Of a stretch of DNA of 45,522 nt, positions 9,773 to 40,400 are shown piece after piece. The stretch comes from a virus. The first letter of the stretch is position 1; each line of letters opens with the position of its first letter. The notes beneath the pieces were generated by a model that worked only from the letters and a program-made list of their open reading frames with translations, was not told the origin of the DNA and ran no database searches. The position numbers were made by a program, and so were the translations under genes. The stretch covers positions 1 to 45,522 of the IMG/VR virus record IMGVR_UViG_3300044641_009149; one strand, 5' to 3'.

Positions 9773-10714
9773 ATGAAAATTAAAGATGCCCTGGGCAATT
9801 ATGTTCTAAAGATGCCCAGAAATTTTGATGGTCATCTGCTCCATTATAGGGAGATGAACGTCAGTGATTTTAAGATTGATAAACAATATCAAAGGCACAT
9901 TTCACCTGCCTACATCAAGAGAGGTGGACACCTTGATTTGGCAAAACTGACGCCAATCGTTGCCTGTAAGAGACCCGATCTTCTTGGTGAAGATAGTGGA
10001 TATTATGTTGTGGATGGTCAACACCGCACGCTGCGTGTGATTCATAGTGATTATGAAGGACCCGTTCCTGTTTGTGTTTATGAGCATCCAAAGCACAGCA
10101 CTTTGGAAGAGTGTGTCAAAGTTGAAGCAAGATTGTTTCATGACTTGAATAGTCTGAGCAAAAAGCCGACAAAAATTGATGAAGTACGTGCTGGAATCTA
10201 CAGTGGAGATAAAGACTCTCTGTTTATTCTGGATGTGATGAAGTCGCTGAATGTGACTTGTGATAATTTTGGATCCGAAGAACCTGATGCCCGTGAAGTT
10301 GAAGTCTTCACTCACTTTTACCTCATGTGTTTGAGTGATTATAAGCATGAGACTTCCAAGATTTTGGATGGATTCAAGTTGTTGAATGAAATGTATCCAA
10401 AAGAAAAGACTGTGAATGGATATATGCTCCGTGCATGTTGTTTGATGTCAGAGTTTGAGAGGGCATTGTCTAATGGAAAGAAAGATTCTTTTGATTCTTA
10501 CATTCGGGAAGTGCTTCCACGAATTGCATCAGTCAAGTCAATTGTAAGAGGTAGAACTTCTGCTCAATCGCCACAATTTATTCTTCATGATATTATCACG
10601 AGGCACAATGATGCACCAAACACTCTTAACATTGGCAAAGAAGCGATTCTGAAACTTGCGAATAAAGATTTAGGTGGTAATCCACGATTCCTCAACCCTC
10701 ATTGGGACAAATAA
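9773..10714 (+). CDS. ParB/DGQHR-domain protein
   Basis: 313 residues. YYVVDGQHRTLRV (D81-G-Q-H-R85) is the signature of the ParB/Srx-like DGQHR fold, with KIDKQYQRHISPAYIKRG upstream as in DUF6551-type phage proteins. The family includes nucleases and NTP-binding ParB-like proteins. The C-terminal half is helical with no recognised domain. In other phages ParB-like domains are fused or adjacent to methyltransferases, as here (previous gene). A DNA-binding or nicking partner for the methylase is plausible but not shown. Confidence 0.78.
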   Translation: MKIKDALGNYVLKMPRNFDGHLLHYREMNVSDFKIDKQYQRHISPAYIKRGGHLDLAKLTPIVACKRPDLLGEDSGYYVVDGQHRTLRVIHSDYEGPVPVCVYEHPKHSTLEECVKVEARLFHDLNSLSKKPTKIDEVRAGIYSGDKDSLFILDVMKSLNVTCDNFGSEEPDAREVEVFTHFYLMCLSDYKHETSKILDGFKLLNEMYPKEKTVNGYMLRACCLMSEFERALSNGKKDSFDSYIREVLPRIASVKSIVRGRTSAQSPQFILHDIITRHNDAPNTLNIGKEAILKLANKDLGGNPRFLNPHWDK

Positions 10715-12148: not shown

Positions 12149-12320
12149 AGATATTCGACAATTTATGTCTGCATTTGAGGACTTTATGAAACACGCTGAG
12201 GTTGAAGAGTTTAATCACGATGCCTGGGTTGTTGCTAAACAATACACTGACAACTTCTATGAGCAAAAAGCAGCAGAACTGGAAGTCACCGTAGACTACT
12301 ACATTTCGGAGTTTGTGTAA
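12138..12320 (+). CDS. Small hypothetical protein, KAAELE..DYYxxEFV family copy 1
   Basis: 60 residues from the ATG at 12138, nested in the end of the previous gene; ATG 12102 is an alternative start. The C-terminus KAAELEVTVDYYISEFV is closely matched by the gene at 14673 (KAAELELPLDYYLAEFV), so the two are paralogues. Acidic, helical, function unknown. TAATG coupling to the next gene. Confidence 0.6.
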   Translation: MNDEDIRQFMSAFEDFMKHAEVEEFNHDAWVVAKQYTDNFYEQKAAELEVTVDYYISEFV

Positions 12321-12499
12321 TGGATGAAAAGACAAAATTGATTCTGGCACAGATGCAGGTTGAGAACATTTACAATCTTCTCAAAGATGGGCAGTATGCT
12401 GGATTCTTCTCATCACATTTGTTTCCCATCAGGTTTGAGATTGAGCGACAACTTTGTAACTTGACAGGATACAACAAATACACTAAAATAGAGGAGTAA
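12320..12499 (+). CDS. Small hypothetical protein
   Basis: 59 residues (AQMQVENIYNLLKDGQYAGF then an ERQL helix), resembling small helical proteins I recall from cyanophages. Its last codons carry the -35/-10 of the next promoter (12461-12489). Function unknown. Confidence 0.6.
   Translation: MDEKTKLILAQMQVENIYNLLKDGQYAGFFSSHLFPIRFEIERQLCNLTGYNKYTKIEE
12461..12489 (+). promoter_or_regulatory. Sigma70-like promoter TTGACA-N17-TAAAAT
   Basis: A perfect -35 with 17-nt spacing to TAAAAT, wholly inside the 3' end of the upstream coding sequence, 23 nt before the ATG at 12513. Confidence 0.7.
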
Positions 12500-12512
12500 T
12501 TTACACATAACA

Positions 12513-12743
12513 ATGAAATCTCTTTATATTGTCGATTACTGGGTTCCTTTTCCTTCCAGTGAGTATGGCGGTCTGATTAACTTGATTGCCGAATCTGATA
12601 CGGAAGCATTTGAGATTCTTGCGAATGAAGAATCCTTCGACGATCGCTATACGGACCGAATTATGGAAAGAGTTGTGAATGCTCAAAAATTCATACTTCA
12701 AGATGATTATGAATCTGGTATTCTGGAGGCATTTACGACGTGA
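12513..12743 (+). CDS. Small acidic hypothetical protein
   Basis: 76 residues. The beta-strand start MKSLYIVDYWVPFPSSEYGG and following DTEAFEILANEE helix suggest a compact alpha/beta fold. It has its own promoter. Ends in a GTGA overlap with the next gene. Function unknown. Confidence 0.65.
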   Translation: MKSLYIVDYWVPFPSSEYGGLINLIAESDTEAFEILANEESFDDRYTDRIMERVVNAQKFILQDDYESGILEAFTT

Positions 12744-12904
12744 CACAACTTTATCGCATTTTAGAATTGACAACCACCGGATGGGAATTGATTGAAGAGG
12801 ATGCAAAGCAATTAACAAAGGAGCAGTGTGACCTACTCCTTAACAATTATTTGTCTGCAGGTTATCCCCCCAATCGTCTTCGTGCTGTTTATGACAACGA
12901 TTGA
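12740..12904 (+). CDS. Conserved small hypothetical protein
   Basis: 54 residues from a GTG start overlapping the previous stop. The pattern YRILELTTTGWELIEEDAKQ, LTKEQC and NRLRAVYD matches a small family I recall from cyanophages. Function unknown. Overlaps the next gene by 14 nt. Confidence 0.65.
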   Translation: MTQLYRILELTTTGWELIEEDAKQLTKEQCDLLLNNYLSAGYPPNRLRAVYDND

Positions 12905-13175
12905 ATTTCCACACCAAGCACCAAAAGGTTATAGTTATGAGTTTGAACAATTTAAAAGGAATACTGTTGCCATCTGGATTCGGAACTCTGCTACTTTTGA
13001 TTATAACCTTGGTAAGTCTGTGCGATCAATTTGGGGATTCTATGACACCAAGAAAAGAGTATATTCCGCCCCCATCAACTCAAGTACAGTTGGGAACGTT
13101 GTTAGTATAGAACAAACATCACCTTACTCTGCGATGATACCAAAGCAAACTCCACTTGAATCTGCATTTGTATGA
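12891..13175 (+). CDS. Conserved hypothetical protein
   Basis: 94 residues from the ATG at 12891; a longer in-frame version would add a hydrophobic stretch translated from the previous gene's region. The core AIWIRNSATFDYNLGKSVRSIWGFYDTKK looks like a beta-rich domain; I recall similar proteins in cyanophages. Function unknown. ATGA coupling downstream. Confidence 0.7.
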   Translation: MTTIEFPHQAPKGYSYEFEQFKRNTVAIWIRNSATFDYNLGKSVRSIWGFYDTKKRVYSAPINSSTVGNVVSIEQTSPYSAMIPKQTPLESAFV

Positions 13176-13459
13176 GTTATCAACCACAGGTCAATGATTA
13201 TGTTAGATGGAAACCTCATATTGAAGGTTGGGTGTACTTTACGGATAAGGAATATATTACGATTGAGATAGGCGTCAAACCAAAGAATGAAGAGAATTAC
13301 GAAGCGTGTTCAATTCATCGCAATGATCGCTTGATGGTTTTATGTTACAATAATCAGTGGAAAGAACTCACTTATATCAAATCAAGAGATTCAAAGTATG
13401 AAGAAGAAAAAAACACTGTGGAGATTGTGGGCGAAATCACTTGGGGAGAAAGCAAGTAA
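13172..13459 (+). CDS. Hypothetical protein, beta-rich
   Basis: 95 residues. VNDYVRWKPHIEGWVYFTDKEYITIEIG and LVLCYNNQW-like strands suggest a small beta barrel (SH3/KOW-like). No catalytic residues. The last 62 nt overlap the next gene's start. Function unknown. Confidence 0.7.
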   Translation: MSYQPQVNDYVRWKPHIEGWVYFTDKEYITIEIGVKPKNEENYEACSIHRNDRLMVLCYNNQWKELTYIKSRDSKYEEEKNTVEIVGEITWGESK

Positions 13460-13670
13460 AAATGACAGAGAATCAGACCACGTTGCTCATATACGGACTG
13501 TTATATTCGGTACTTATCTCATTACTAATCTATTCATTATCGCAGGGGTCATAAGACATTGGAACGACGGACCAACTATTAATTTGTATTATTATGAAGT
13601 ATCAAGTCATCTACCTGAAACCCAAAAAGAAAGCATTCTCAAAGCAAACCGCAGTTTTCTATACGATTGA
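13398..13670 (+). CDS. Small membrane protein
   Basis: 90 residues: a basic N-terminus (KKKKTLWRLWAKSLGEKAS), then one transmembrane helix (about residues 34-51, VIFGTYLITNLFIIAGVI) and a polar tail. I recall cyanophage proteins with this helix that end soon after it. Here the frame continues and overlaps the next gene by 77 nt, so the tail may be variable or recently extended. Positive-inside suggests a cytoplasmic N-terminus. Confidence 0.55.
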   Translation: MKKKKTLWRLWAKSLGEKASKNDRESDHVAHIRTVIFGTYLITNLFIIAGVIRHWNDGPTINLYYYEVSSHLPETQKESILKANRSFLYD

Positions 13671-13743
13671 AGATGCTACTCATTGGGAGAAGTATGTAAA
13701 GACTCAAGGATGCCAAAATACTGAGATTATGCCAGTTTTATAG
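13594..13743 (+). CDS. Conserved small hypothetical protein
   Basis: 49 residues (YQVIYLKPKKKAFSKQTAVF, then DATHWEKYV), matching a small family I recall from cyanophages: strand, basic turn, strand, helix. It overlaps the 13398 gene by 77 nt in another frame; conservation of both proteins suggests both are real. It is the last gene before the repeat-rich region. Confidence 0.6.
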   Translation: MKYQVIYLKPKKKAFSKQTAVFYTIEDATHWEKYVKTQGCQNTEIMPVL

Positions 13744-13803
13744 TGTTTTAACTTAAATTTAATTAAAAAAGGTATTAAAAAATATAAATGTGTTTGTTGT
13801 AAC

Positions 13804-13833
13804 ATTCTCAATAAGATGAATATTATTGAGAAT
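13804..13833 (+). repeat. Inverted repeat ATTCTCAATAA / TTATTGAGAAT (left)
   Basis: A perfect 11-bp inverted repeat with an 8-nt spacer. A third half-site with one mismatch (TTGTTGAGAAT) lies 3' at about 13847-13857. The same arms recur at 14557-14588. It could be a hairpin or a protein-binding palindrome. Confidence 0.85.
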
Positions 13834-13890
13834 CAATTGAGTATTATTGTTGAGAATAGAATAAATGTAGAGGATTATAAGTCTTATAAA

Positions 13891-13966
13891 TGCCTTTGAG
13901 TCTTGTTTAATGCCTTTGAGTCTTGTTTAATGCCTTTGAGTCTTGTTTAATGCCTCCAGGACTTGT
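13891..13966 (+). repeat. 20-bp tandem direct repeats (3 perfect + 1 degenerate)
   Basis: The unit TGCCTTTGAGTCTTGTTTAA starts at 13891, 13911 and 13931 without change. A fourth, diverged partial copy (TGCCTCCAGGACTTGT) begins at 13951. The length and head-to-tail order are iteron-like. Confidence 0.92.
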
Positions 13967-14043
13967 GACCTTAGCGAGCGTATCATAAGAAGAGCAGTTT
14001 GTCAACCCCCGCCCCCATAAAAATTCCCAGACCCTCACAAGAA

Positions 14044-14093
14044 CTCGACGAGACTTGACATTCTTCTAGAAGCATGATAGAATCTCGTCGAGA
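14044..14093 (+). promoter_or_regulatory. Promoter TTGACA-N17-TAGAAT flanked by two palindromic operators
   Basis: -35 TTGACA (14055-14060), 17-nt spacer, -10 TAGAAT (14078-14083). CTCGACGAG lies just upstream (14044-14052) and TCTCGTCGAGA just downstream (14083-14093). The spacer itself holds a CTTCTAGAAG palindrome (14063-14072). This is the classic layout of a repressed promoter. Confidence 0.7.
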
Positions 14094-14120
14094 CATTCTG
14101 TTACGAGATCCACATCAGAA

Positions 14121-14129
14121 CTCGTCTAG
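14121..14129 (+). promoter_or_regulatory. Degenerate operator CTCGTCTAG
   Basis: One base away from CTCGTCGAG, in the same array. Confidence 0.45.
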
Positions 14130-14162
14130 AACGCTCTAGATTCATATATATTATCGTATGAA

Positions 14163-14247
14163 TCTCGTCGAGATCTGCACACACCTATTGCAATCTCGAC
14201 GAGCCTTATGCTACAATATACAAGTCACATCACACAATCTCGACGAG
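14163..14247 (+). promoter_or_regulatory. Second operator-flanked promoter (TTGCAA-N18-TACAAT)
   Basis: -35 TTGCAA (14188-14193) and extended -10 TGC-TACAAT (14212-14217). Operators: TCTCGTCGAGA at 14163-14173 upstream, CTCGACGAG at 14195-14203 inside the spacer, and CTCGACGAG at 14239-14247 ending 3 nt before the ATG at 14251. A protein bound at the spacer site would block RNA polymerase. Confidence 0.68.
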
Positions 14248-14250
14248 CTC

Positions 14251-14391
14251 ATGTACGACGATTACGATTTCGACTATACGTATACGAATGATTATGTAGA
14301 TCTAGATGAGAACTATACACTAGATCTAGATGATGATTATGCACGAGATTCGCATGATTATCAAGATCTAGCATATCGTCATTATGCATAA
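14251..14391 (+). CDS. Tiny Asp/Tyr-rich protein
   Basis: 46 residues, of which 14 are Asp and 10 Tyr (for example MYDDYDFDYTYTNDYVDLDE). Highly acidic low-complexity sequence encoded with repeated AGATCTAGATGA blocks. I chose the ATG at 14251 because the promoter at 14188-14217 lies between it and an earlier in-frame ATG. It could be a DNA-mimic or disordered protein; no homologue is recognised. CTAG density and codon use differ from neighbouring genes, suggesting separate origin. Confidence 0.5.
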   Translation: MYDDYDFDYTYTNDYVDLDENYTLDLDDDYARDSHDYQDLAYRHYA

Positions 14392-14533
14392 TAAGCAACG
14401 CGTTCGTATCATTCTAGATGTAGAGTGTTATGATGATCTAGACCTAGATGTATATGAATGGGCAGAAATATTGCAGCTCGAAGGTGATGAGAATGTGCAT
14501 TCTACCATCATGCATCTCGATCCATTCAAGTAA
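14384..14533 (+). CDS. Small acidic hypothetical protein
   Basis: 49 residues, starting 8 nt inside the end of the Asp/Tyr-rich gene, so probably co-translated. It has the motif ILDVECYDDLDLDVYEWAEI and continues the CTAG-rich composition. The stop precedes the large nested hairpin. Function unknown. Confidence 0.5.
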   Translation: MHNKQRVRIILDVECYDDLDLDVYEWAEILQLEGDENVHSTIMHLDPFK

Positions 14534-14611
14534 TGTGCCAGTTTAAAGATTGGACCTATTCTCAATAAGGTCCTCGTTATTGAGAATAAGGACAGTTGAG
14601 AATCTGGCACA
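14534..14611 (+). repeat. Nested inverted repeat: TGTGCCAG/CTGGCACA around TATTCTCAATAA palindrome
   Basis: The outer arms TGTGCCAG (14534-14541) and CTGGCACA (14604-14611) match the intergenic hairpin module found elsewhere. Inside is a perfect 12-bp inverted repeat TATTCTCAATAA / TTATTGAGAATA (14557-14588), related to the one at 13804. It looks like the standard module with an insertion. Confidence 0.8.
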
Positions 14612-14618
14612 GTAGGGG

Positions 14619-14647
14619 TTGATATCTGCCACGTGATGGTTTACATT
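14619..14647 (+). promoter_or_regulatory. Promoter TTGATA-N17-TACATT
   Basis: -35 TTGATA (14619-14624), 17-nt spacer, -10 TACATT (14642-14647), immediately after the nested inverted repeat. It drives the gene at 14673. Confidence 0.6.
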
Positions 14648-14672
14648 ACCTTCGTTGTCGCAATTGATTCGA

Positions 14673-14807
14673 ATGTGTGGTCCTGTTTTTGAATATTCTC
14701 GTGAGGATTTCTTCAATGATGCTTCTCAGGAAGAATGGGATGAATGGGAATCTAAAGCAGCAGAACTTGAGTTGCCTTTAGATTACTATCTCGCGGAGTT
14801 TGTATAA
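14673..14807 (+). CDS. Small hypothetical protein, KAAELE..DYYxxEFV family copy 2
   Basis: 44 residues. The C-terminal KAAELELPLDYYLAEFV mirrors the gene at 12138; the N-terminus (MCGPVFEYSREDFF) differs. Acidic and helical. Transcribed from its own cassette promoter. Function unknown. Confidence 0.58.
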   Translation: MCGPVFEYSREDFFNDASQEEWDEWESKAAELELPLDYYLAEFV

Positions 14808-14814
14808 GAAACCT

Positions 14815-14874
14815 TGTGCCAGTTGAGAGAGTGGCACACAGGGGGTTGTGGTGCGCCAGAATCCCTGATACATT
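14815..14874 (+). promoter_or_regulatory. Hairpin/promoter cassette (TTGTGG-N17-TACATT)
   Basis: Stem TGTGCCA / TGGCACA (14815-14838), a GGGGG tract, -35 TTGTGG (14846-14851), 17-nt spacer, -10 TACATT (14869-14874). A second possible stem CAGGG / CCCTG encloses the -35. Drives 14899. Confidence 0.65.
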
Positions 14875-14898
14875 ACATTCGTCCCTGAGAGACAAACC

Positions 14899-15024
14899 AT
14901 GTTTGACGAACTCTGGTCTGAGATTCAAGATGCTCCTGGTGAAATCTTTGACCTTGACATTCCCGAACTTCGTGATGAAAAGTTCGATGTGAATGAGTAT
15001 CTCAACGCAAACTACGATTACTGA
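14899..15024 (+). CDS. Tiny acidic hypothetical protein
   Basis: 41 residues, strongly acidic (FDELWSEIQDAPGEIFDLDI). First gene of a three-gene unit with 15026 and 15193. Function unknown. Confidence 0.55.
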   Translation: MFDELWSEIQDAPGEIFDLDIPELRDEKFDVNEYLNANYDY

Positions 15025-15025
15025 A

Positions 15026-15193
15026 ATGACTGAAGTTCTCAAAGAGTATCATTTCGATGATGAGCAAATTGACTTTCTGATGCGTATTGTGCGGGACAAT
15101 GCACAATACGAAGATGATGAAGTTCGTGAGTGGATGGAAGAACTTGCGAATCAAATCGAAGACCAAATTGTAAATCACCCCACCAACGACTGA
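15026..15193 (+). CDS. Small acidic helical protein
   Basis: 55 residues from the ATG at 15026, 1 nt after the previous stop. Nearly all charged helix (DDEQIDFLMRIVRDNAQYED). The stop overlaps the next ATG. Function unknown. Confidence 0.6.
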   Translation: MTEVLKEYHFDDEQIDFLMRIVRDNAQYEDDEVREWMEELANQIEDQIVNHPTND

Positions 15194-15408
15194 TGACTCT
15201 TACTTCCCAACAACTTGACCAACTCGTTGAAAACTACGCTGAGCGTATTGTTGATGAGATGGACACCAAATGTTTGATGCAATTTGTGTACGATACGCTT
15301 GTTGAGAGTTTGGCAGGTAAATCTGAAGAAGATGTGCTCGGTGAGATTGCCTATGTGTATGATGAGGATGTTGTCGAAGAATTGATTGAGAGTGTGACAG
15401 TTCAGTAA
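15193..15408 (+). CDS. Small acidic helical protein
   Basis: 71 residues, acidic helices (TSQQLDQLVENYAERIVDEM, then LMQFVYDTLVESLAG). The last codons (SVTVQ-stop) are formed by the left arm of the following hairpin cassette. Function unknown. Confidence 0.65.
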   Translation: MTLTSQQLDQLVENYAERIVDEMDTKCLMQFVYDTLVESLAGKSEEDVLGEIAYVYDEDVVEELIESVTVQ

Positions 15409-15452
15409 GTGGCACAAGGGGGGTTGCGATTCCCCCCGATCTGGTCCATACT
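15393..15452 (+). promoter_or_regulatory. Hairpin/promoter cassette (TTGCGA-N17-CATACT)
   Basis: Imperfect stem TGTGACA / TGGCACA overlaps the preceding stop. Next is a GGGGGG / CCCCCC stem with -35 TTGCGA (15424-15429) in its loop, then -10 CATACT (15447-15452). Drives 15479. Confidence 0.6.
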
Positions 15453-15478
15453 ACATTTGTTGAGAGGGAAACCCCCAA

Positions 15479-15826
15479 ATGCGTAAGATTGAATCCCAGA
15501 TGAATGCTGCCATTCGTGACTCCCGCAATTGGAAGTCTGGCAACACTGAGGTTACCTTTGACGCTGAAACTAACGAGTCGAAAGTGTTTCTTTTCGGCAA
15601 TCACATTGCTACCATTGGTGACAACTTCGTGCAAATCTTTGACGGTGGATGGCAGTCTGTGACCACCAAATCGCGTCTGAATGCGATTCTTCAAGAGCAT
15701 GGAATCAAGGGTGAATGTGTGTTTCAAAAAAACTTTAAGTGGTTCGTCCACAAGTTCATCGGGCAGGCAGGAACTTCTCCTGTCTACAATGAATACGATT
15801 TCAGCAATGGTTTCATGTTTGCATAA
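15479..15826 (+). CDS. Conserved phage hypothetical protein
   Basis: 115 residues. The segment HIATIGDNFVQIFDGGWQSV, followed by TTKSRLNAILQEHG and VFQKNFKWFV, matches a family I recall from diverse phages. A small alpha/beta domain of unknown function. It stands alone between a cassette promoter and a strong terminator. Confidence 0.75.
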   Translation: MRKIESQMNAAIRDSRNWKSGNTEVTFDAETNESKVFLFGNHIATIGDNFVQIFDGGWQSVTTKSRLNAILQEHGIKGECVFQKNFKWFVHKFIGQAGTSPVYNEYDFSNGFMFA

Positions 15827-15832
15827 AGAATC

Positions 15833-15858
15833 GGGGGGCAATATGCTCCCCTTTTTTT
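15833..15858 (+). terminator. Rho-independent terminator
   Basis: A GGGG / CCCC stem closing on GCAATATGC, followed by seven T. Ends the 15479 transcript 7 nt after its stop codon. Confidence 0.85.
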
Positions 15859-15877
15859 ATACTCAAGTCGGCTGCCC

Positions 15878-15938
15878 GTGTGCCAGTTGAGAGAGTGGCA
15901 CACACCCCCTTGCAATCGGCACCAATCCCTGCAATACT
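15878..15938 (+). promoter_or_regulatory. Hairpin/promoter cassette (TTGCAA-N17-AATACT)
   Basis: A perfect 8-bp stem GTGTGCCA / TGGCACAC (15878-15903), CCCCC tract, -35 TTGCAA (15910-15915), -10 AATACT (15933-15938). The loop GTTGAGAGAG is identical to that of the 14815 cassette. Drives the nucleotidyltransferase gene. Confidence 0.65.
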
Positions 15939-15944
15939 AAAAGC

Positions 15945-16841
15945 ATGAAAAACACCCACCTTGAGCACCCCGAAGATTCTATTCTCACGGGTGACCTTTC
16001 TGCCCTGGATTGGTTCGTGAATCCTGGCAACTTGAGCGTCAAGATTGATGGCGCCCCTGCGATTGTCTGGGGTGTGAATCCTGCTAACGGTGAGTTCTTT
16101 GTAGGAACCAAAGCAGTCTTTAACAAGAAAAAGATTCGTATTGCTCACAATCATGAAGAAATTGATTCATTCTATCAGGGTGAAGTTGCGCGTATTCTTC
16201 ACGCTTGCTTTGATTATCTGCCTCGCTTCGATACTATCTACCAAGGTGATTTTATTGGGTTTGGTGGTGATTGTGAGTATACTCCCAACACGATCACTTA
16301 CAAGTTTCCTGAGGTAGTTTCTCAGCAAATTATCATTGCACCGCACACTTGCTATTATGCTGAGAGTGATCTTCGTGACGCTCAAGCATTCCCCGATCGT
16401 AGCATCTGGAATGATACTGAGACGGTGAAGTTCGTGCAACCTCAAGCATACATTCAGCACGGTCAAACGTCCTTCGCTGATGTAGAGGAAGTCTGCAAGT
16501 TTGCCCGTCAAATGGCAACTGTTGTGACCTTTGCAACTGATAAGGAAGCAGCAAAGATTAAGCAGCAACTGAATGCTTGCATCCGTGAGAATCGTCCTGT
16601 TGTGAATAGTGAATTCGACTGCGATCCTAACCTGCTGGGATTGTGGGCACTGGTGAAATCGATCAAGGCAGATTGTCTCTATCTGTGCCGCAATGATGGT
16701 CCTGCCGCTTACATCGGGCAGGAGAGGATTGATGCTGAAGGTTACGTACTCACCAATGAGTTTGGTATGTTTAAGTTGGTGAATCGTGAGGCATTCTCCT
16801 ATCATAATTTCAACAGCGGGCGCTTTCAGTGTGCCAGTTGA
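15945..16841 (+). CDS. DUF6267-like covalent nucleotidyltransferase (ligase fold)
   Basis: 298 residues. The N-terminus KNTHLEHPEDSI and SVKIDGAPAIVWG carry the KxDG active site of DNA/RNA ligases and capping enzymes; K33 would form the lysyl-NMP adduct and D35-G36 complete motif I. Downstream, NGEFFVGTKAVFNKKK, YQGDFIGFGGD and TPNTITYKF occupy the places of later nucleotidyltransferase motifs. I recall this pattern in DUF6267 proteins of cyanophages. The substrate (RNA, DNA or protein) is unknown. It is well short of replicative ligases with OB domains. It starts 7 nt after the -10, so a leaderless transcript is possible. Confidence 0.7.
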   Translation: MKNTHLEHPEDSILTGDLSALDWFVNPGNLSVKIDGAPAIVWGVNPANGEFFVGTKAVFNKKKIRIAHNHEEIDSFYQGEVARILHACFDYLPRFDTIYQGDFIGFGGDCEYTPNTITYKFPEVVSQQIIIAPHTCYYAESDLRDAQAFPDRSIWNDTETVKFVQPQAYIQHGQTSFADVEEVCKFARQMATVVTFATDKEAAKIKQQLNACIRENRPVVNSEFDCDPNLLGLWALVKSIKADCLYLCRNDGPAAYIGQERIDAEGYVLTNEFGMFKLVNREAFSYHNFNSGRFQCAS

Positions 16842-24187: not shown

Positions 24188-27100
24188 ATGATACAGACGG
24201 GTTTTGAATCTAGGGTAAAAATACAGCAAATAATCGACAGTCAACTTCCAGAATTTATCTTAGACGAAAGTCCAAAGGCTGCAGAGTTTTTAAAGCAGTA
24301 TTATATTTCTCAAGAGTATCAAGGTGGTCCAGTAGATATTGCTGAGAATCTAGACCAGTATATTAATATCGATAATCTCATTCCAGAGGTAGTTTCAGGA
24401 TACACGACTCTTGTAGGAGATATAAGCGCATCATCAACAAGTATTACTGTATCAAATACTAAAGGGTTTCCTCAAAAGTATGGATTGTTAAAAATTAATG
24501 ATGAAATCATTACATACACGGATTTATCTGAAAATACTTTTACTGGTTGTGTAAGAGGATTTAGTGGAGTTACAAACTACCATAAAGATTTAAAATATGG
24601 GGAATTGGTTTTTAGTGAATCCTCTGCAAGTTCTCACACTTCTGGGACTTCTGTAGAAAATTTAAGTTCTTTATTTTTACAAGAATTTTATAAAAAAATA
24701 AAGTTTAGTTTAACTCCTGGATTAGAAGGTCTTAGTTTTACAGAAAACTTAAATGTTGGAAATTTTATAAAAGAAGCGAGAACTTTATATGAATCTAAGG
24801 GAACTGCAGAATCCTTTAGAATTTTATTTAATGTTTTGTATGGAGAAACTCCAAGTGTAATTGATTTAGAGCAGTTTTTAATCAAACCTTCTGATGCTGG
24901 ATATATTAGAAGAGATGTTGCAATCATAAGCAATATTTCAGGAAATCCGACTAAGTTGGTTGGGCAGACAATTTATAAGTCAACAGATGAAACAGGAACT
25001 AGTGCTGCAGTATCTGAAGTAGAAACTATTACTCGAAATGGAATAACATACTATAAACTTAACTTTTTTGTTGGATATGATGACACATATCCTAATGTTA
25101 CAGGAACGTTTGTAATTACACCAAATACAAAAGTCGTTGAGGAAGTAACGGTTTCTCCATTAGAATCTGGAGAAGCAGTTATCAGTGTTGATTCTACAAT
25201 TGGATTTAAAGATTCGGGAAGTATTTTTTTCGGGTCTAATGAAATTTTTTATTCTGATAAAAGTGTCAATCAATTTTTGGGTTGTTATGTTAAATCCGAA
25301 GATTCTGTAACTATACCAAAAACATCATTTTTAATTTCAAATGAAACTTACTTTGGATATGAAGATGGTGATACCTCTAAAAAAGTAGAATTTAGAATTA
25401 CTGGAGTATTGTCCAATCTCAATATTGAAAGTGAAGATTATCAATTATTGGATAATGATATTATCTTCCCAAAAAATCTTGGAGAGGTAATAGAACGAGG
25501 TGATACAACAAAAGAAATATTTGCAAATTCTTGGATTTATAATACAAGTTCCAGATATCAGATTGATTCCTTCATAGGAAATACCATAACAACAAAATCT
25601 AATATTGATGTATCCAGTTTAAAAGTAGGTGATACTGTTGAAATTTTAAGAAGAAACACGGAAATTGTTGTTACCGGATTTGATAACGTAAATATCAATT
25701 CAATTTCTGAAAATACTGTTACGATTAATGTAAGCACTTCTTCATTAAATTCTTTAGATGAATATGATGTTAGAAGAATTCTTAATAAAGCATCATCTTC
25801 AATAGTTCCAATTGATTTTGGAAATAATAAAATAGTGTCTGATGTACAAAATGTTTATGTTGAAAGACCAGATAATTTATACGTTGCGTCTAATTCTTTG
25901 CCATCATATCAGATAGAAGTTGATGTTTTTGGATATAATGTTTTCGAGTTGACTGGATATGATACAAATACAGAAGCATATTCAATAATTGATTTTGATA
26001 CAGAAATTTCTTTTATAACTGGAGACAGGGTTTTTTACTCTGCAGATGCCCCCATTGATGGATTGGAAGAGGGTAGTTATTTTGTTGAGGTATTGAGTAA
26101 TAAAAGACAGGTTAAATTATATTTAAGTGGTCCTGTAGTTGGAAGCGACGATTTTGTTTACTTTGGCGCTGGTCAATCATCAACTCCAACCGGAACTCAT
26201 AAATTCACTCTCTATTCTCAGAAATCAAATAAAATTTCTGGTCAAAAAATACTCAAAAAGTTTAAACTAAATCCAGAATTAGGAAGTAATGAATCTCACA
26301 GCACACTTCCTGGAGCTACTGGAATTTTAAAAAATGGAGTTGAGATATACAATTTTAAAACAAATGATAAAATTTATTATGGTCCAATTGAAAATGTAGA
26401 TGTTTTAAATGGTGGCAGTGAATTTGATGTAATTAATCCCCCTCTCTTAGAATTGTCTTATGGATCCGGATTAATTCAACCAGTAGTAATTGGATCTGTT
26501 GAAAAAATATTTGTAGATCCCCAAGATTTTGATATCGATGTTATTGTTTCAATTGCCCTTACGGGTGGAAATGGATCTGGGGCAAGTTTCCAGCCAATCG
26601 TTGAAAAATACGTAAGAGAATTAGAATTTGATGCAAGGTCTACATCTATCGGTGGAGGACTGGATGTTACTAATGATAGAATTTCTTTTGCATCGACACA
26701 CAATTTATCCAATGGTCAACCTATTGTATATGATAGAAACTTTAATTCTGCAATTGGAGTTGGTACCTTTAATGGATCCAATTTAGACCAATCAAAAACT
26801 TTAATAACTGGAGCAACATATTACACTAAAGTTGTAAACGATAAAACTATTGAAATATATCAGTCATTCTCAGATTACAGCGTAGGTGTTAACACAGTAG
26901 GATTTACCACAATAGGGAATTCAGGAATTCAAAAGTTTAAAACCGAACCAAAAAATAGACTTACTGGAATTTCCGTAATTAACAAGGGATCGGGATATGC
27001 AAATAGAACTCTGAGAGTATCGCAAACAGGAATATCCACGTATAATAATACAGTTACTTTTAAAAATCACGGATTTGGTGATGGTGAAATTGTTTCTTAT

Positions 27101-30100
27101 GATTACGAAACGTCTTCTATTTCTGGGCTATCAACATCCAATAATTATATTGTTTTAAAAGTTGACTCAGATACATTTAGACTTTGTAATGCAGGAATAG
27201 GTGGCACAGATATTTCAAACTATCAAAGAAAAAAATATGTAAAGTTTGCTTCAACTGGAAGTGGTTATCAGATATTTAAGTATCCAAATATTTCACTATC
27301 TGTTGAATACTCTTCTGTTGGATTAGGAAGTACTCAAGTTAGAGGAGTTATCAATGCCATTCCGGTTATTAGAGGAAAAATTTCTGAAGTTTATGTTTAC
27401 GATAAAGGCAGCGATTATGGAACAACAACATTAAACGTTCATAAAAGACCTCAAGTTATTATTAAGAATGGAAAAAATGCCCAACTCAGACCTACAATTA
27501 CAAATGGAAGAATAACTGATGTACAAGTATTGTATGGAGGATTAGAATATTATTCTACTCCAGACTTAGTTATCAATGGTAGTGGAGTAGGTGCTATCGT
27601 TAGACCGGTAATTTCTGATAATAGAATAACAGATGTAATTGTTGTAAATCCCGGCACAGGATATACAGCAACAAACACCACAATTAAAGTTGTTCCTGCA
27701 GGAAAAAATGAGGTGTTAAGAGTAAATGTTAGATCACTTACTCTCAATAATTCCTATAAGTATGGAATTCAAAATGAATTTTATAGAAATCCATCGAGCG
27801 AAGTATTGGTTGAAGATGGTGATGGGTTGCAATATGCAGTTCTCGGATATTCACAAAATATAAAAACAAATCTTAATGATAGTGGAGACCTATCTGGACA
27901 ACATTCTGACATTATTGGTTGGGCATATGATGGAAATCCAATCTATGGATCTTTCGGATATACTGATCCAAATAATATTAACTCTACTATAAAACAACTA
28001 CAACCAGGATATTCTTTAATAGATGTAGAAAATAGACCGTCAACCGCCGATTTTCCATATGGTTATTTTGTTGAGGATTACAAATACACTGGAAGCGGAG
28101 ATTTAGACCAATACAATGGTAGATTTGGAAAAACTAAAGATTTCCCCGAAGGTGTCTATGCTTATTTTGCTACTACAGAAAGTAACATTGATGGAGAAAT
28201 TGTAAGTAAATTTCCTTACTTTATTGGAAATGAATATAGATCTGCATATCTAGAAGAAAATATTAATTTAGACCAATCATTTGACTTCAATAATTCCAAA
28301 CTATTAAGAAATACTCTACCTTACAAAGTAAATGACCAATATGCAGACAATGATTTTATTACAGAATCAAATGAGATAATAGAACAAAAGACTTTAGTAG
28401 AATCTGTGTCTTCGGGAAGTGTATCTGGACTCGAAGTTATCAAATCTGGATCAGACTATGCCGTGGGAGATTCAATAATTTTTGATGATACCAAGAGTGG
28501 TGGTGGTGGCATTAGTGCAGAGGTATCCAGAATAACTGGAAGAGATATTGTTAATATTAATACCACAATTGACTCCTACAATGATTCTCTTATCGAATGG
28601 CAAGGGGGAAGTCAGGTAAAAGTTTATATTTCTCCATATCACATTTTTAAAAATCAAGATAATATTAATATATCTGGATTATCTACTCAGGTTTCCAATT
28701 TAAATGGTTCTTACCAAATAGGTCTAACCACATATACGTCAATTGTTGACAAGGATATACCAAACTTTGCTGCAACCGGAATTGTTACCGATATCTATTT
28801 AACGTCTATTCCCGAAAACATTTCAATCGGAAGCAGTATTCAAATAGAGAATGAAATTTTTTCCATCCTAAACGTCTATTCAAATTTTGGTATTGTAAGA
28901 GTAGACAGATCTAGTGCTGGTGTTGCTCACACCCAAACAACACCGGTATATTTTCTTCCCGACTCGTTTACAGTAAATAGACAAACAAATTATTTTGACT
29001 CTCAAAATAATTCAAAAATATACTTTAATCCAACGGAGTCTGTCGGTGTTGGAACTACTCCAGGATCTGGAAAAAATGTAAATTATAGAATTGGAATCAC
29101 CACATATAGTGCTTTTATTCCTACGCAAAGTATATTTTTACCCAATCATCCATTTAAGACTAATCAACAAATTATTTTAAGAAAACCTTCTGGTGGCAGT
29201 GCTCTGGCAGTTTCAAATACGTCCGGGGGGACTTCATTTAATATATTGAGTGGAACTTCTGAGATTTTTTATGCCATTAACAAATCAAAAGATTACATTG
29301 GAATTGTAACATCTGTTGGACTTACGACTACGGGTGGATTATTTTTCCTCTCCCCTGGCACAAATGATTATCATTATTCCGTAGAATCAAATTTACCACA
29401 AGTTAGAGCAAAAATTGACAGAATAACTTCAGTTGTTTCAGTATCAACATCTCACCAATTGCAAATTGGAGACGAAGTGTCTCTGGAAGTTAAACCTGAT
29501 ATATCGGTTGGTATTGGCACTTCTACTTCAATACACGTTAGATTAGATCCATTAACTCAAAAAATAGTAATAAATCCACTAATTTTTAATTCAACTGGAA
29601 TCAATACTTTAACAAATTCTATTTCAATAAATTCTCATAACTTAAGCACTGGAGATAAAATTTTATATGAATCTTTGGGAACATTACCAACGGGATTAAC
29701 CACCGGAAATTATTTTGCATATAGAGTCGATGAAAATAACATAAAGTTATGTGACACATTATCAGATTCTTTTAATTCTCCACCAACCACAGTTTCAATT
29801 GGTGGAACTGGTGCCGGAAATCAAAAGATTAGTCTTGTCAACCCCCAAATCAAAGTTATTAAAAACAATAACTTAGTTTTTAATCTTTCAGACTCTTCAC
29901 TACTGGGATATGATTTTAAAATTTATTATGACCAAGACTTTGAAAAGGAATTTGTTTCTATAGCAAACACCAGTTCTCTCTCCGTAATTGGGGTTGGAAC
30001 TATTGGATTGTCTTCAACATCCACACTAACTTTAAATTATTCTGATGGTGTTCCAGAAAAACTCTATTATAATCTGGAAAAATCTGGTTACATTAGCACT

Positions 30101-33100
30101 GCCGATACAGATGTTACAAATTATTCCGAAATAGTATTTGAAGGTAGTTTGTATGATGGAAGTTACAATATTATCAGTGTTGGAAGCACAACTTTTACAG
30201 TATCTCTAAAACAAATTCCAGAGAATACTTATTATAGCAGAGAGGATTGTGAGATTCTTGAATATTCAACATCTTCTTTAACAGAAGTTGGAGGTATCCA
30301 CCGAGTGAATCTTTTGTCGGGAGGATATTCATACACATCTCTTCCAATATTCAATGAAGTTGAATCTGATAATGGAACAGGTGCCTTTATCGTTCCCGTC
30401 TCAACAACAATTGGAAAAATTAAACAAAGTAGAATTATTAATGAGGGATTTGAATATGCATCAGATAAAACTCTTAGACCATCCGCTTCTATACCAAAGT
30501 TTGCTTATATATCGGCTTCTAATACAATTGAAAGCGTAAACGTATTAAATGGAGGACAAAATTACACCTCGGCTCCAGATTTAATTTGTGTTAATACAGA
30601 TAATGGAGATTTAATTGATTCTGGTTTACTTAGAGCAAATCTGTCTGGGTCTTCGATTGCATCCGTAACGGTTGAAAATGATCCAAAAGGTCTTCCGATT
30701 AAACCAGTTACAATTAGAGCGATAAACAACTCTAATGGCATTTCAATTGATACGATTCAATCATCCTCTGGCATAGTTACTTGCATCTTAACAACACCAT
30801 TAGCTGGATTTACCTCTGCTCCATTTTCTTCGGGAGACAAAATTTTCGTTGAGGGGATTCAAAAAAGTGGATCTGATGGAGATGGATTTAATTCATCTGA
30901 TTATGGATATCAATTCTTTACAATTACTAACTTCCAAAATATTAATCCTGCTAAGTTAACATTTAGCCTCTCCGGATTAACTACAAATCCCGGAATTGCT
31001 AAAACAATTCAAGAATCTTATGCAACAATCATTAATTTTAATAGTTATCCAGAATTCGAAGTTATACAAAGATTCTCACCCTTCCAAATTGGAGAAGGAT
31101 TATCATCGGATAGTGGAAATGGATTTGCAATCAGAGATTTAATTGTAGTTAGTTGTGATGAAAATTTTGTAAGAGTATCTGGCAATTACAATCTTTCTTC
31201 TGGAGAAAAAATTAGAGGATTGGAATCTTCTAACGAAGCAACTATTGACTCTGTTAAAGTTGTTGATGGATATTATGATGTTGATTATTTTAACTTACAA
31301 AAGTTTGGATGGAAGTCTGAAACAGGAAAACTCAGTGAGAATTATCAAGTAACACCAGACAACGATTACTATCAAAATCTATCTTATTCCGTAAAGAGTA
31401 GTAAAACCTGGGAAGATATTGTAACTCCGGTCAATAATCTATTACATATCAGCGGAATGAAAAATTTTGCTGATACTCAAATTCTACAAAGTGTTCAATC
31501 TGGAATAGGAACTACCGAATCTCCATTGACATTATTGAATATCTTTGAAAGTGATAATAGGGTAGACACCATTAATAACTTAGATTTAGTTATTGATGTG
31601 GACACACTGGATAGTAAATCAAAATTTATCAAATTTAATAATATTTCTCTTACCGACTATATTCTATGTAAAACAAACAGAGTTTTGAAAATTGACGACA
31701 TAAGTTCTCAATTCTCAAGCGAAAATGACGAACCATCTGAGGTTTCTAATATATTTCAAATTAATTCTGGAAATAATTACAATAGATTTTTAGTTCAAAC
31801 TCGTAACATTTTTACCAATGAAGTGCAATTTAATGAAATCATAACAATTAATGATGACCAAAATATTTTTACACTACAAAAAGCGGAGTTAAATACTCTT
31901 AATGATGAAGATGTAATCGTCGATATTGAAGGATATGCAGATATCACATCAAATTTCTACTTAAAATTTAATCCAGAGGATACTATTAATTCAGATTTTG
32001 ATATTAAAATCTTACAAGATACTTTTATTTCTAAAGCTGGCATCGGAACTACTCAGTCTGTTGGATTTGTAGATTTAATAGCAGCAAATAAAATTGTCTC
32101 CAGCGGAATAACAACGTCTATTTTTAGTTTAGACTCTTCCAAATATTCTGCAATTTATTCCAATATTCATGTTTTAAATAGTGATAGATCTGACATGAAT
32201 TATGTTGAAGTATATTTAACTCATGACGGAAGCAATACTTATATTAGTGAATATTATTTTGATGATAACTTAACCGAAACTAGCTCAGGATTTATTGGAT
32301 CGTTTGGAGCATCTATTAGTGGTGGAATTTTATCATTAAACTATACAAATACTTCAGCAGAAAATATAACAGTTAGAACAAAAAATGTTGGGTTTGGTAC
32401 CACTGCTGTTGGTGTAGGAACTTATAGATTTAAACTTGCTGGGCAATCTGATGGAGCGGAAAGAACGGTAATTTTCCAATCACAATTCAATAACATTTCC
32501 TCAGGATCTACCAGTATTTTGGTCTTAGATAGATCTTTGTTTACATCATCAAAATCCACAATTAAAGTTGGATTTGGTCAAACAAGTTCACTACACCAAA
32601 TAATGGCAATCAATGATGGAAGTGATGCATACTCAGTCCAATATCCATTCTTATCAATCGGAAGTACTTCCGGAATAGGAACATTTGGAGCAGAAATTTC
32701 TGGAAATAACTTTATAGTTAAATTCTATGCAGATCCCTCAATTTCTGGTAACTTAGAAATACTTTCGTTTAGCGAAAATTTCTATACGGATTTAGACACC
32801 GTTAATATTCCACCCGCTCTCACTTATAGTCCAGTTGAGCAAACTGTCACATCTGTAAAATATTACGGAGCAAATTCACCAAATATAAACAAATATGACT
32901 TTGAAGCAGAATATGAGGGCACGCCAATCTTTATGAAAACATTTAATCCATCAGATACTGATGTTTTAAATTTGGCAACAGGCATATTTACAATTCCAAA
33001 TCACTTTTTTAACACCGGCGAACAATTGATTTATACTCCAAAATCCACTTTTATTGGAATTGGGACTTCCGCAATGGGAATTGGGGCAACAACGAATTAT

Positions 33101-37474: not shown

Positions 37475-40400
37475 ATGGCACAAAAAACAAATTTAAATGT
37501 AAGCCCATACTTTGACGATTTTGACGCCGAAAAGAACTTTTACAAAGTTCTTTTTAATCCAGGAAGACCCGTCCAAGCAAGAGAATTAAATAATATTCAA
37601 TCTATTCTACAAAATCAGATTGAATCGTTTGGTAGTCATATTTTTAAAGAAGGATCTGTAGTAATTCCTGGAAACTTAACATATGATTCACAGTTCAATG
37701 CTGTTAAATTAAACCCATCAAACTTTGGTGTCAATATTTCACTATACATCAATAAATTTTTAGGCAAGAAAGTTACTGGGCAAATTTCTGGTGTAACTGG
37801 AACAATTCAAAAAATTGAAATACCAGACTCAATTAATAATTTACAGTATGTTACATTATACGTAAAATATCTTGATTCTGGTAATAATTTTGATATTACA
37901 CCATTTCAAAATGGAGAATCACTGTTTGCAAGTGAAAATGTAGTATATGGAAATACAACCATTGTAGCTGGAAACCCATTTGCATCTTTAATTTCTTCCG
38001 ATGCTACCGCCGTTGGGTCTGCAGTTTCTATTGACACTGGAATTTATTTTGTAAGAGGAACTTTTGTAAATATTTCTAAGCAAACGATTATTTTAGATTA
38101 CTATACAAACACACCATCATATCGAGTTGGTCTTAAAGTATCTGAAGAAATCATAACAGCAAAAGAAGATGACTCTCTTTATGATAATGCAAAAGGATTT
38201 ACAAACTATGCTGCTCCTGGAGCGGATAGATTTAAAATAGGTCTATCTTTAACCAAAAAAACAATTGATAGTGTTGATACTGACGTAGATTTTATTGAAC
38301 TTCTTAGATTAGACGCAGGGCAAGTCAAAAAATTAAATACAAATACGCAATACTCTTTGATTAAAGATTATTTGGCACAAAGAACTTTTGACGAATCGGG
38401 AAACTATTCAGTAACTCCTTTTAAAATTTCCTTACATGATTCTTTAAATAACAGACTTGGAAATAATGGTTTATTTTTTGAAAATCAAAAAACAGAAAAT
38501 GGAAATACACCATCAGATGATTTAATGTGTGTTAAATTGTCTCCCGGCAAAGCATACGTCAGAGGATATGACATTGAAAAGGTTTCTACTACCATTTTAG
38601 ATGTACCAAAACCTAGAGAAACTCAAAGTGTTGAAAATGTAAGTATTCCATTTGAAATGGGAAACTTGTTGAGAATTAATAATATAACAGGATCACCGAA
38701 ACAAAATCAATCATTAGAATTACATTCTGTCAGAAGAAGCTCATCGGGAAATCCAAGTTCTACAACAAAAATTGGAGATGCCAAGGTTTATAATTTTAGA
38801 CTGACGGATTCTGCATATTCTTCTGCTTCTACAAACTGGGATTTATATCTTTATGATATTCAAACTTATACAACATTAATTCTAAATCAAGCATTATCTA
38901 TATCTCAGTTGCCAGCAACATCTTTTATTAAAGGAAAGAGTAGTGGTGCAAGTGGATATGCAGTCTCTGCTGGAGATGGCACAACTACTGTCAATTTACG
39001 CCAAACTTCTGGAAGTTTTGTAAAGGGTGAGCAGATTATTATTAACGGGTTAGAATTGTATCCCAGATCAATTGCGAATATCACCGTATATGACAGTCAA
39101 GATATCAAGCAAGTGTATCAATCCACGGCAGTATCTGGATTTACTACTGCCTTTATGGGAGATTCTGTTTTAGGAAAGCAATTACCAATTGGTTTTAATG
39201 CTGCCGATACGGTTAATATAACTGCTGGTGGAGTTATAACTTCCCCAGGTAAATTCTTTAATTCAATCAAACCCGGAAGTATTATCAGATATCAAACACC
39301 AACAGGATCTTTAGAAAATTTTAATAGAGTAACTAGTGTTAGTTTAACTGGATCTTCGATGACGGTTGCAAGTGTTGCAAGTGTCAGTGGTGTTTGTGAT
39401 GGATCGATTGGTGTTTCTACAAATATATCTTTCAGTGTTGGGACTCCTTCAATCAATAATCTTGAAAAAGGATTCTTATATGCAGAAGTTCCAAATTCAA
39501 ATCTATCATCAATAGATTTGAATGATTCTATTTTAACTTTTAGTGCTCAATCAACGAGTGCTAAGTCATCAAGTAGTCCAATTGTTTTATCAGTATCTGA
39601 TTTTTCTCTACCATCAGGTTTAACAACCGCTTTATTCCAAGCGTTTGATGAAGAGCGTTATTCTGTGCATTACACTGATGGCACAACTCAATCGCTAACA
39701 TCAGATCAGTTTTCATTATCCAATAATCAAGTTACTTTATCAAATCTTACGTCTGGTAAAACCACTTCATCAATTAACGCAACATTTATTAAAAATGGGG
39801 TTCAAAGCAAAGAAAAGCAATATAATAGAAGTCAAACAATTAACGTAATTTATTCAAAATACCCACAATCTGGTAGTGGAATTAGCACTTCTATCAATGA
39901 TGGTCTTGAATATAATCCATATTATGGATTGAGGGTGCAAGATCAAGAAATCTCACTTAACTATCCAGATGTTGCAAACATTATAGCAGTTTATGAATCT
40001 TTAAACACATCCAATCCTTCTCTTGATTCTATATCTTTTAGTAGTGTTTTAAATATTGGGGGAAACGCTATTATTGGGGAAAATATTCTAGGATCTGAAA
40101 GCGGTTGTGTAGCCAGAGTAGTTACAAGATCTACAAATAGTGTTGGTGTTGTATATTTAAATTCAAATAGATTTTTAACTAACGAAAGTGTTACATTTGA
40201 GGAGTCAAATATTACCGGAGAAATTGATTTTATTACTATAGGGAGTTACAATGATATTACAAATAGATTTAAGTTAGACAAAGGTCAAAAGGATCAATAC
40301 TATGACTACTCCAGAATTGTAAGAAATGAAGGAGAAACAGAACCTTCTAAGAGAATTTTAGTTGTTTTTGATTATTTTAGTGTGCCCTCCACGGATAATG

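Follow-up and report, generated by a model that had tools for sequence, protein, structure and literature searches.

An array of short palindromes in front of two small acidic genes is, as judged from its sequence and that of its relatives, a real, conserved and apparently undescribed cis-regulatory module of T4-like cyanophages. With moderate confidence, the array is read here as an operator cluster for a putative, probably dimeric protein, which would control an early σ70-type operon of small genes in these phages. It was noticed in a virus record of 45,522 bases, the whole of which is called the window in the following. By sequence, the source of the window is a T4-like cyanophage: 206 of the 207 phage records matching positions 13000–16000 are named Synechococcus, Prochlorococcus or cyanophages, and the genes downstream include baseplate wedge proteins. 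Two very long open reading frames (24188–35869 and 37475–44770, 3893 and 2431 aa) lie beside the baseplate wedge genes.

The palindrome array, its promoters and its genes

All of the five exact and one near CTCG(A/T)CGAG sites that an earlier note on this DNA had counted within about 205 bp were located, the exact ones (CTCGWCGAG) at 14044, 14084, 14164, 14195 and 14239, with a span of 204 bp. In 100 dinucleotide shuffles of the window, exact sites occur 0.05 times on average and at most once, compared to the five observed. The rest of the 45,522-base record contains no further exact site, i.e., the array holds all five, and the window scan found one-mismatch sites distant from the array at 34020 and 44134. 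None of the other W-centred 4+4 palindromes of the window occurs in more than two copies within 250 bp. The features of the region are as follows, with the strand given where one is assigned:

14044–14052: palindrome site 1, CTCGACGAG, 2 bp upstream of the P0 -35
14055–14083, plus strand: promoter P0 from the promoter scan, TTGACA-N17-TAGAAT, TG before the -10, 11/12 consensus matches
14084–14092: palindrome site 2, TCTCGTCGAGA core, abutting the P0 -10 on its downstream side
14121–14129: near-match site, CTCGTCTAG, one CTAG half-site
14164–14172: palindrome site 4, CTCGTCGAG, 31 bp upstream of the P1 spacer site
14188–14217, plus strand: promoter P1 from the promoter scan, TTGCAA-N18-TACAAT, TG before the -10, 9/12 consensus matches
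14195–14203: palindrome site 5, CTCGACGAG, within the P1 -35/-10 spacer, one base past the -35
14239–14247: palindrome site 6, CTCGACGAG, 3 nt before the gene 1 ATG, at the ribosome-binding position
14251–14391, plus strand: gene 1, a 46-aa acidic mini-protein, MYDDYD...LAYRHYA
14384–14533, plus strand: gene 2, a 49-aa acidic protein, phrog_12516, a putative protein without an assigned role
14531–14614: long imperfect inverted repeat after gene 2, 38-nt arms, 74% complementary

Both P0 and P1 consist of TTGACA/TATAAT-like hexamers 16–18 bp apart, which is the form expected of σ70-type early promoters. The earlier note had described the sites as bracketing TTGACA-N17-TAGAAT, and indeed those at 14044 and 14084 flank the promoter at 14055–14083; its placement of one site on a spacer and another just before the ATG at 14251 is likewise borne out by the sites at 14195 and 14239–14247. 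The same promoter scan returned 11 promoter-like sites in 13600–14900 against 4.7 in shuffles, and therefore P1 is not outstanding by its score alone.

At the thresholds applied, searches of Pfam, PHROGs and NCBIfam gave no family for gene 1. Substitutions in 72 close pairs number 298, 215 and 628 by codon position, and an alignment of relatives, which are 42 to 71 aa long, has both ends conserved in frame, so that gene 1 is protein-coding. Gene 2 is present in 74 of the 82 other non-redundant listed loci (see below), where its start lies a median of 181.5 bases after that of gene 1. The predicted structure of its product (pLDDT 80.3, pTM 0.49) is nearly devoid of regular secondary structure, and a PDB sequence search gave a single match (E 0.61). 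The inverted repeat at 14531–14614 is a possible transcript end; a terminator scan found none. The window contains no tRNA and no known RNA family at gathering thresholds.

Recurrence of the array in related phages

When IMG/VR was scanned for sites in pairs or triplets, at least 215 loci were obtained, an arbitrary sample, from which 83 loci with a G+C content of 50% or more were set aside, as they resemble chance coding matches. The array loci kept have at least three exact sites and a local G+C below 50%, and comprise at least 126 loci with at least 137 arrays. A strict pattern for the mini-gene, ATG-TAY-GAY-GAY-TAY, which misses the forms of S-SKS1, S-T4, Sf-CH5 and P-SSM2, found a MYDDYD...LAYRHYA gene in 104 of the 126 array loci among the matches listed, and 22 are without it. 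Counting also a few loci whose arrays are smaller, as well as S-SRM01 and the window, at least 109 sequences carry the mini-gene; requiring that less than half of the 9-mers are shared reduces these 109 to 83 non-redundant loci, referred to as the listed loci. The loci are related by descent, and counts across them are not independent.

The positions of the sites are conserved. A site ends 1–7 nt before the gene 1 ATG in 81 of the 83 listed loci (in 78 at 2–4 nt), and sites 79–91 bases before the ATG are frequent as well. Where the ATG-proximal site is exact, it is A-centred in 80 of 80 cases, and the spacer site is T-centred in 46 of 66; A- and T-centred forms are mixed at positions other than the ATG-proximal one. 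Upstream of the promoter zone, the sites are extended to the 11-mer TCTCGWCGAGA. Most one-mismatch sites in the listed loci (68/90) read CTAGWCGAG or CTCGWCTAG, and a CTAG half-site is, by this sequence evidence, tolerated. In relatives, sites also occur within the mini-gene and ahead of other small genes.

An exact or one-mismatch site sits in a 17- or 18-bp promoter spacer before gene 1 in 74/83 listed loci, a positional result and not a blind test, since the promoter taken was whichever matched best within 110 bp (in 2 of the 74, a shifted hexamer pair). The nine misses include loci with a worse-matching spacer site and loci in which the scan picked another hexamer pair. Of the 83 loci, 67 have a P1 spacer of 17 bp and the other 16 one of 18 bp; the -10 boxes are mostly good, and the -35 usually matches weakly (TTGCAT or TTGCAA). 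In 19/83 listed loci, including the window, the -10 of a distal promoter abuts an exact or CTAG-variant site. A second promoter-like element, TTGC(A/G)T-N17-TATAAT, lies in fixed register within the LAYRHYA codons and the stop of gene 1 in 72/83 loci, with at least five matches to TATAAT as the criterion; a first test had given 42/83 at mixed positions, the fixed register was picked after viewing the sequences, and 16 other registers gave at most 5/83. This second promoter at the gene 1 3' end would drive gene 2. In the window it is lost (14369–14397), and gene 2 overlaps gene 1.

Beyond the gene 1 region, the listed loci contain 31 further clusters of at least two sites. In 18 of these, distributed over 14 loci, the next frame encodes either a ...K/HAKNRF... 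protein (13 clusters, in 7 of which a site ends 6 nt before the ATG) or an ...EWRTQSFTT... protein (5 clusters); the remaining 13 are followed by another or no clear frame. By eye, no consensus promoter is obvious at many of the further clusters, and two have runs with 24–25 bp spacing.

Recurrence was also seen when loci were sampled by gene 2 instead of the motif, with the S-SRM01 protein as query, and this sample therefore favours close relatives. It comprised 80 loci, of which three with fewer than 450 bases upstream were dropped and the remaining 77 reduced to 43 non-redundant ones, some contigs being common to the motif-selected set. An exact or CTAG-variant site is present in 42 of the 43, at least three within 500 bp upstream in 35, and a gene 1-like ending in 40. 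Site density is 9.2 per kb upstream vs. 0.04 per kb elsewhere, and a reversed control pattern gives 0 upstream and 0.03 per kb in the rest. The sequences contain multiple copies of a palindrome that overlap promoters at conserved positions, as in phage operator arrays. The earlier note had named three observations that could overturn its proposal; two of them, a background frequency of the motif and a lack of conservation in related phages, were not made, because the sites lie far above background in the window and the array recurs in related phages at conserved, promoter-like places.

Cultured phages and named records

The 240,842 bases of S-SRM01 contain 11 exact sites, with about 0.2 expected, in three clusters that all fall within 85571–91005. 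Its gene 1 (L220:12341–12478) has no annotation in the record, and array and gene 2 are present. The third S-SRM01 array is followed by an opposite-strand HNH endonuclease gene with no small gene directly after the array (L220:17599–18200), an arrangement suggestive of gene replacement. The second and third arrays are separated by a stretch that includes an unannotated basic ORF of 100 aa with a MarR-like stretch (L220:17025–17327; Pfam E 0.015, below the cut-off). The S-T4 record contains the locus twice, with CTCGACTAG preceding the gene and CTCGACGAG within it. P-SSM2 carries one exact and three CTAG-variant sites at 66031–66168, three before and one inside PSSM2_098, the product of which ends in LAQRHHV. 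S-SKS1 shares the array weakly, with two exact sites 97 bp apart, and the uncultured Marine virus AG-345-L05 has six exact sites.

Exact sites are absent from S-PM2, Syn9, S-RIM8 and Sf-CH5, and S-M1 and S-H9-1 have one each. In Bellamy, DSL-LC03, S-SM2, S-SCSM1, SynMITS9220M01, S-CAM7 and S-B05, gene 2 is present, gene 1 is missing and no site lies near gene 2; scattered single sites occur elsewhere in some of these phages, with three exact ones in SynMITS9220M01. Among the six records with gene 1 that were searched for sites, five have at least two, and Sf-CH5 has kept gene 1 and gene 2 with no exact site; Sf-CH8 also carries gene 1. No alternative palindrome array with 4–5-base half-sites in more than two copies was found in the 500 bp upstream of gene 2 in the array-free phages.

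Selection on the DNA and phasing of the sites

Inside gene 1, the site coincides with the codons of an LDE triplet. In relatives, 105 of 134 LDE triplets in gene 1 are spelled CTCGACGAG, with 6.3% expected from the other codons of the same genes, compared to 3 of 50 in other long same-strand frames of the same loci, which implies that selection acts on the DNA itself. The gene 1 copy of the window itself contains no exact site.

Distances between all pairs of sites have a period of 10.65 bp (bootstrap 10.45–10.9), with a strength of 0.32 vs. at most 0.14 after jittering, a null that leaves shared descent in place; with square-root weights the strength falls from 0.32 to 0.15. Adjacent spacings alone crowd at 31–33 and 40–43 bp, with no peak near 10.5 bp, and the slot means, for which bins of 10.5 bp were used, do not count as evidence of phasing. 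Helical phasing of the sites is therefore suggestive.

The left flank

Upstream of the array lie two further features:

13804–13966: A+T-rich origin-like stretch, TTGAGAAT/ATTCTCAA repeats and a 20-bp tandem repeat
13977–14005, minus strand: leftward promoter-like element, TTGACA-N17-TACGCT, good -35 and poor -10 match, upstream of the array

A leftward TTGACA with some hexamer 16–18 bp away was found in 67/83 listed loci, among which L140 (624 bp away) and L155 are doubtful. No evident gene follows the leftward element. Between -700 and -150 of the listed loci, TTGAGAAT and ATTCTCAA occur at 1.76 and 0.95 per kb, vs. 0.16 and 0.14 per kb elsewhere. TGTGGAAAA is present in 36 copies in 43 kb of flank vs. 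3 in the other 757 kb; TGTGGAAAA-type boxes, found in 15/83 listed loci, resemble the cyanobacterial DnaA box. The tandem repeat of the window (13869–13966) has a AATGCCTTTGAGTCTTGTTT unit in two exact and further diverged copies, and other loci have, by eye, repeats of their own at the same place. GC skew was uninformative on the start of replication. The left flank may be a replication origin or encode a leftward small RNA. By eye, the leftward element and flank are kept in the array-free phages Bellamy, S-SM2, S-SCSM1, SynMITS9220M01 and Sf-CH5, and the element is not visible in DSL-LC03, S-CAM7 and S-B05. Among isolates, the array was found to go with gene 1, not with the origin-like flank.

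Search for a binding protein

A temperate-phage immunity switch would have a recognisable CI-type repressor gene beside its operators. The 13 genes at 12320–15408, scanned against Pfam and PHROGs, match no known regulator or repressor family, CI-type repressors included, and most are without known function, so that a regulator of unrecognised type may be among them. Further away, at 9773–10714, the window encodes a protein of 313 aa that weakly matches a ParB-like family (phrog_1033) and the DGQHR domain and is absent from the 45 window ORFs commonest near arrays. A phyletic profile was used to select S-SRM01 ORFs with hits in at least two of the three other array-positive phages (S-T4, P-SSM2, S-SKS1) and in none of the three array-negative ones (S-PM2, Syn9, S-SM2). 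It returned numerous short ORFs that are probably spurious, along with proteins of structural appearance and one of HNH type, and none was a convincing regulator by eye.

Site pairs are absent from nine cyanobacterial genomes, six of which match the backward-read control pattern, and the 12-mer ATCTCGWCGAGA occurs near background in three host genomes; a host regulon is therefore not the first choice. The LexA box probably differs from the array site, and the MotA box consensus is absent from 14020–14260. The same stretch contains neither the NtcA (GTA-N8-TAC) nor the Pho box (CTTA-N7-CTTA) consensus, both as given in a passage of PMC3037559, in agreement with the statement of the earlier note that NtcA-type sites differ.

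A proposed early switch and alternative explanations

Under the favoured reading of the array as an operator cluster, host RNA polymerase would first use P0 and P1 after infection, leading to expression of gene 1 and gene 2. The regulator would then accumulate and bind TCTCGWCGAGA at several sites, perhaps on one helix face, thereby covering the P1 spacer, the P0 start region and the ribosome-binding region, so that transcription would stop. In bacterial operators, a bound dimer in the spacer, in the start region or just before the ATG is most easily read as a roadblock to initiation, and shut-off of P0 and P1 by a site-binding protein is proposed for this reason. We infer from sequence that a protein binds, that it is of phage origin and that it represses; repression is the most likely sign of its effect, and a phage-encoded binder appears more likely than a host one, as supported by the lack of site pairs in the nine cyanobacterial genomes. 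The phage-encoded repressor switch suggested by the earlier note is partly supported, by the placement, rarity and recurrence of the sites, and lacks a regulator-family match near the array. Several observations count against the operator reading: no binder was found among the candidates judged by eye; S-PM2, Syn9 and S-SM2 do without the array; Sf-CH5 has gene 1 without an exact site; many of the further clusters show no evident consensus promoter by eye; the P1 -35 is usually weak; and adjacent spacings lack a 10.5-bp peak.

An activator, or a MerR-type factor that distorts the spacer, could instead switch P1 on, given the site in the spacer in 74/83 listed loci and a P1 -35 that is usually weak (TTGCAT/TTGCAA). 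However, with spacers of 17 or 18 bp, mostly good -10 boxes and an 11/12 match for P0, neither promoter should need help, and at the sites over the start region and before the ATG such a protein would obstruct, which makes activation unlikely. The palindromes might also be replication-origin iterons recognised by a phage initiator, with an adjoining A+T-rich region for unwinding. The flank, with its leftward element, repeats and TGTGGAAAA-type boxes in 15/83 listed loci, fits this idea, as does the single theta origin predicted for Syn9 according to a passage of PMC2984593. Yet the flank is kept in five array-free phages, so that the array is probably not an iteron set; moreover, the leftward element is not visible in DSL-LC03, S-CAM7 and S-B05, the array occurs among isolates only with gene 1, and 18 of the 31 further clusters precede other small genes 1.8–6.8 kb away. 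The iteron reading is accordingly rated as distinctly unlikely.

The remaining alternatives are less probable still. If the motif worked in RNA, as an element of the 5' leader that affects translation or decay, its palindromic form would be incidental; the invariably A-centred exact site (80/80) at the ribosome-binding position and the many further clusters upstream of small genes without an obvious promoter would be explained. Such a role is improbable considering that a number of sites precede the predicted start or are placed in the promoter spacer, that A and T centres are mixed at other positions, and that the fold of the window's gene 1 RNA is a modest improvement on shuffled sequence (z -1.83), with 10 of 200 shuffles equally good. 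That the arrays are repeats which travelled along with small genes in mobile cassettes for regulation or recombination, with no dedicated binder, is suggested by the 31 further clusters, 18 of them before two other small-gene families, and by the promoter/stem-loop cassettes for which T4-type phages are known; it is very improbable in view of the fixed promoter positions, the codon choice that maintains sites in gene 1, and the stretches between sites, which, beyond the immediate flanks, are not repeated in the window. Titration of a host DNA-binding protein by the array, as a decoy, would account for the many sites in one place and for the lack of a binder found in phages, and is the most remote of these ideas, as the nine host genomes lack site pairs (the backward control matches six) and ATCTCGWCGAGA is near background in three.

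Relation to known systems and implications

As an operator cluster, the array would resemble those of lambda CI-type repressors and TP901-1 CI/MOR, in which several short palindromes likewise overlap promoters; it differs from them by its occurrence in T4-like cyanophages, by the lack of a recognisable adjoining repressor gene and by sites that are also in coding sequence. The T4 oriE iteron array, too, consists of short repeats in the vicinity of small genes and an early promoter, but the cyanophage array goes with gene 1 and not with the origin-like flank. T4-type phages carry mobile early promoter/stem-loop cassettes, which share with the present locus an early promoter, a small gene, an inverted repeat and a tiny-gene region; a palindromic operator array is not known to be among their features. 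Possible temporal control of early σ70-type genes is a likeness to the early and middle control of T4 (MotA, AsiA, Alt, ModA/B). However, motA, asi, alt, modA and modB are reported lacking in cyanomyoviruses in a passage of PMC2984593, and a MotA box is unmatched here.

Passages of the same 2010 review call the mechanism of early and middle transcription "still unclear" in cyanomyoviruses, which lack the T4 factors, and report a putative middle promoter for some of them, not for P-SSM2 or S-PM2 (PMC2984593). Parts of other studies describe searches for σ70, T4 late, Pho and NtcA sites (PMC3037559) or for motifs upstream of psbA (PMC5931967), and the word promoter is absent from the main text of the S-SRM01 description (PMC8557907). 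Among the matches listed, no description of the array was found in the open literature; of the listed papers, none that contains one of the two 9-mers has a title on cyanophages, and none with cyanophage terms contains a 9-mer. The earlier note's remark that no cyanophage regulator with this site has been described holds for these matches.

Tentatively, then, T4-like phages of Synechococcus and Prochlorococcus may share a phage-encoded, TCTCGWCGAG­A-specific early shut-off switch of new specificity for a set of small-gene promoters, with operators in the coding sequence of its target, replacing control by MotA, AsiA and polymerase modifiers, although we would put this slightly below even chances. 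Since P-SSM2, S-SKS1, S-T4 and S-SRM01 have named hosts, the idea is testable. The array also marks a mini-gene without annotation in S-SRM01. Extending from a reservoir Synechococcus phage to the Prochlorococcus phage P-SSM2, it would provide a DNA bait of about 200 bp for the missing early/middle regulator of these phages.
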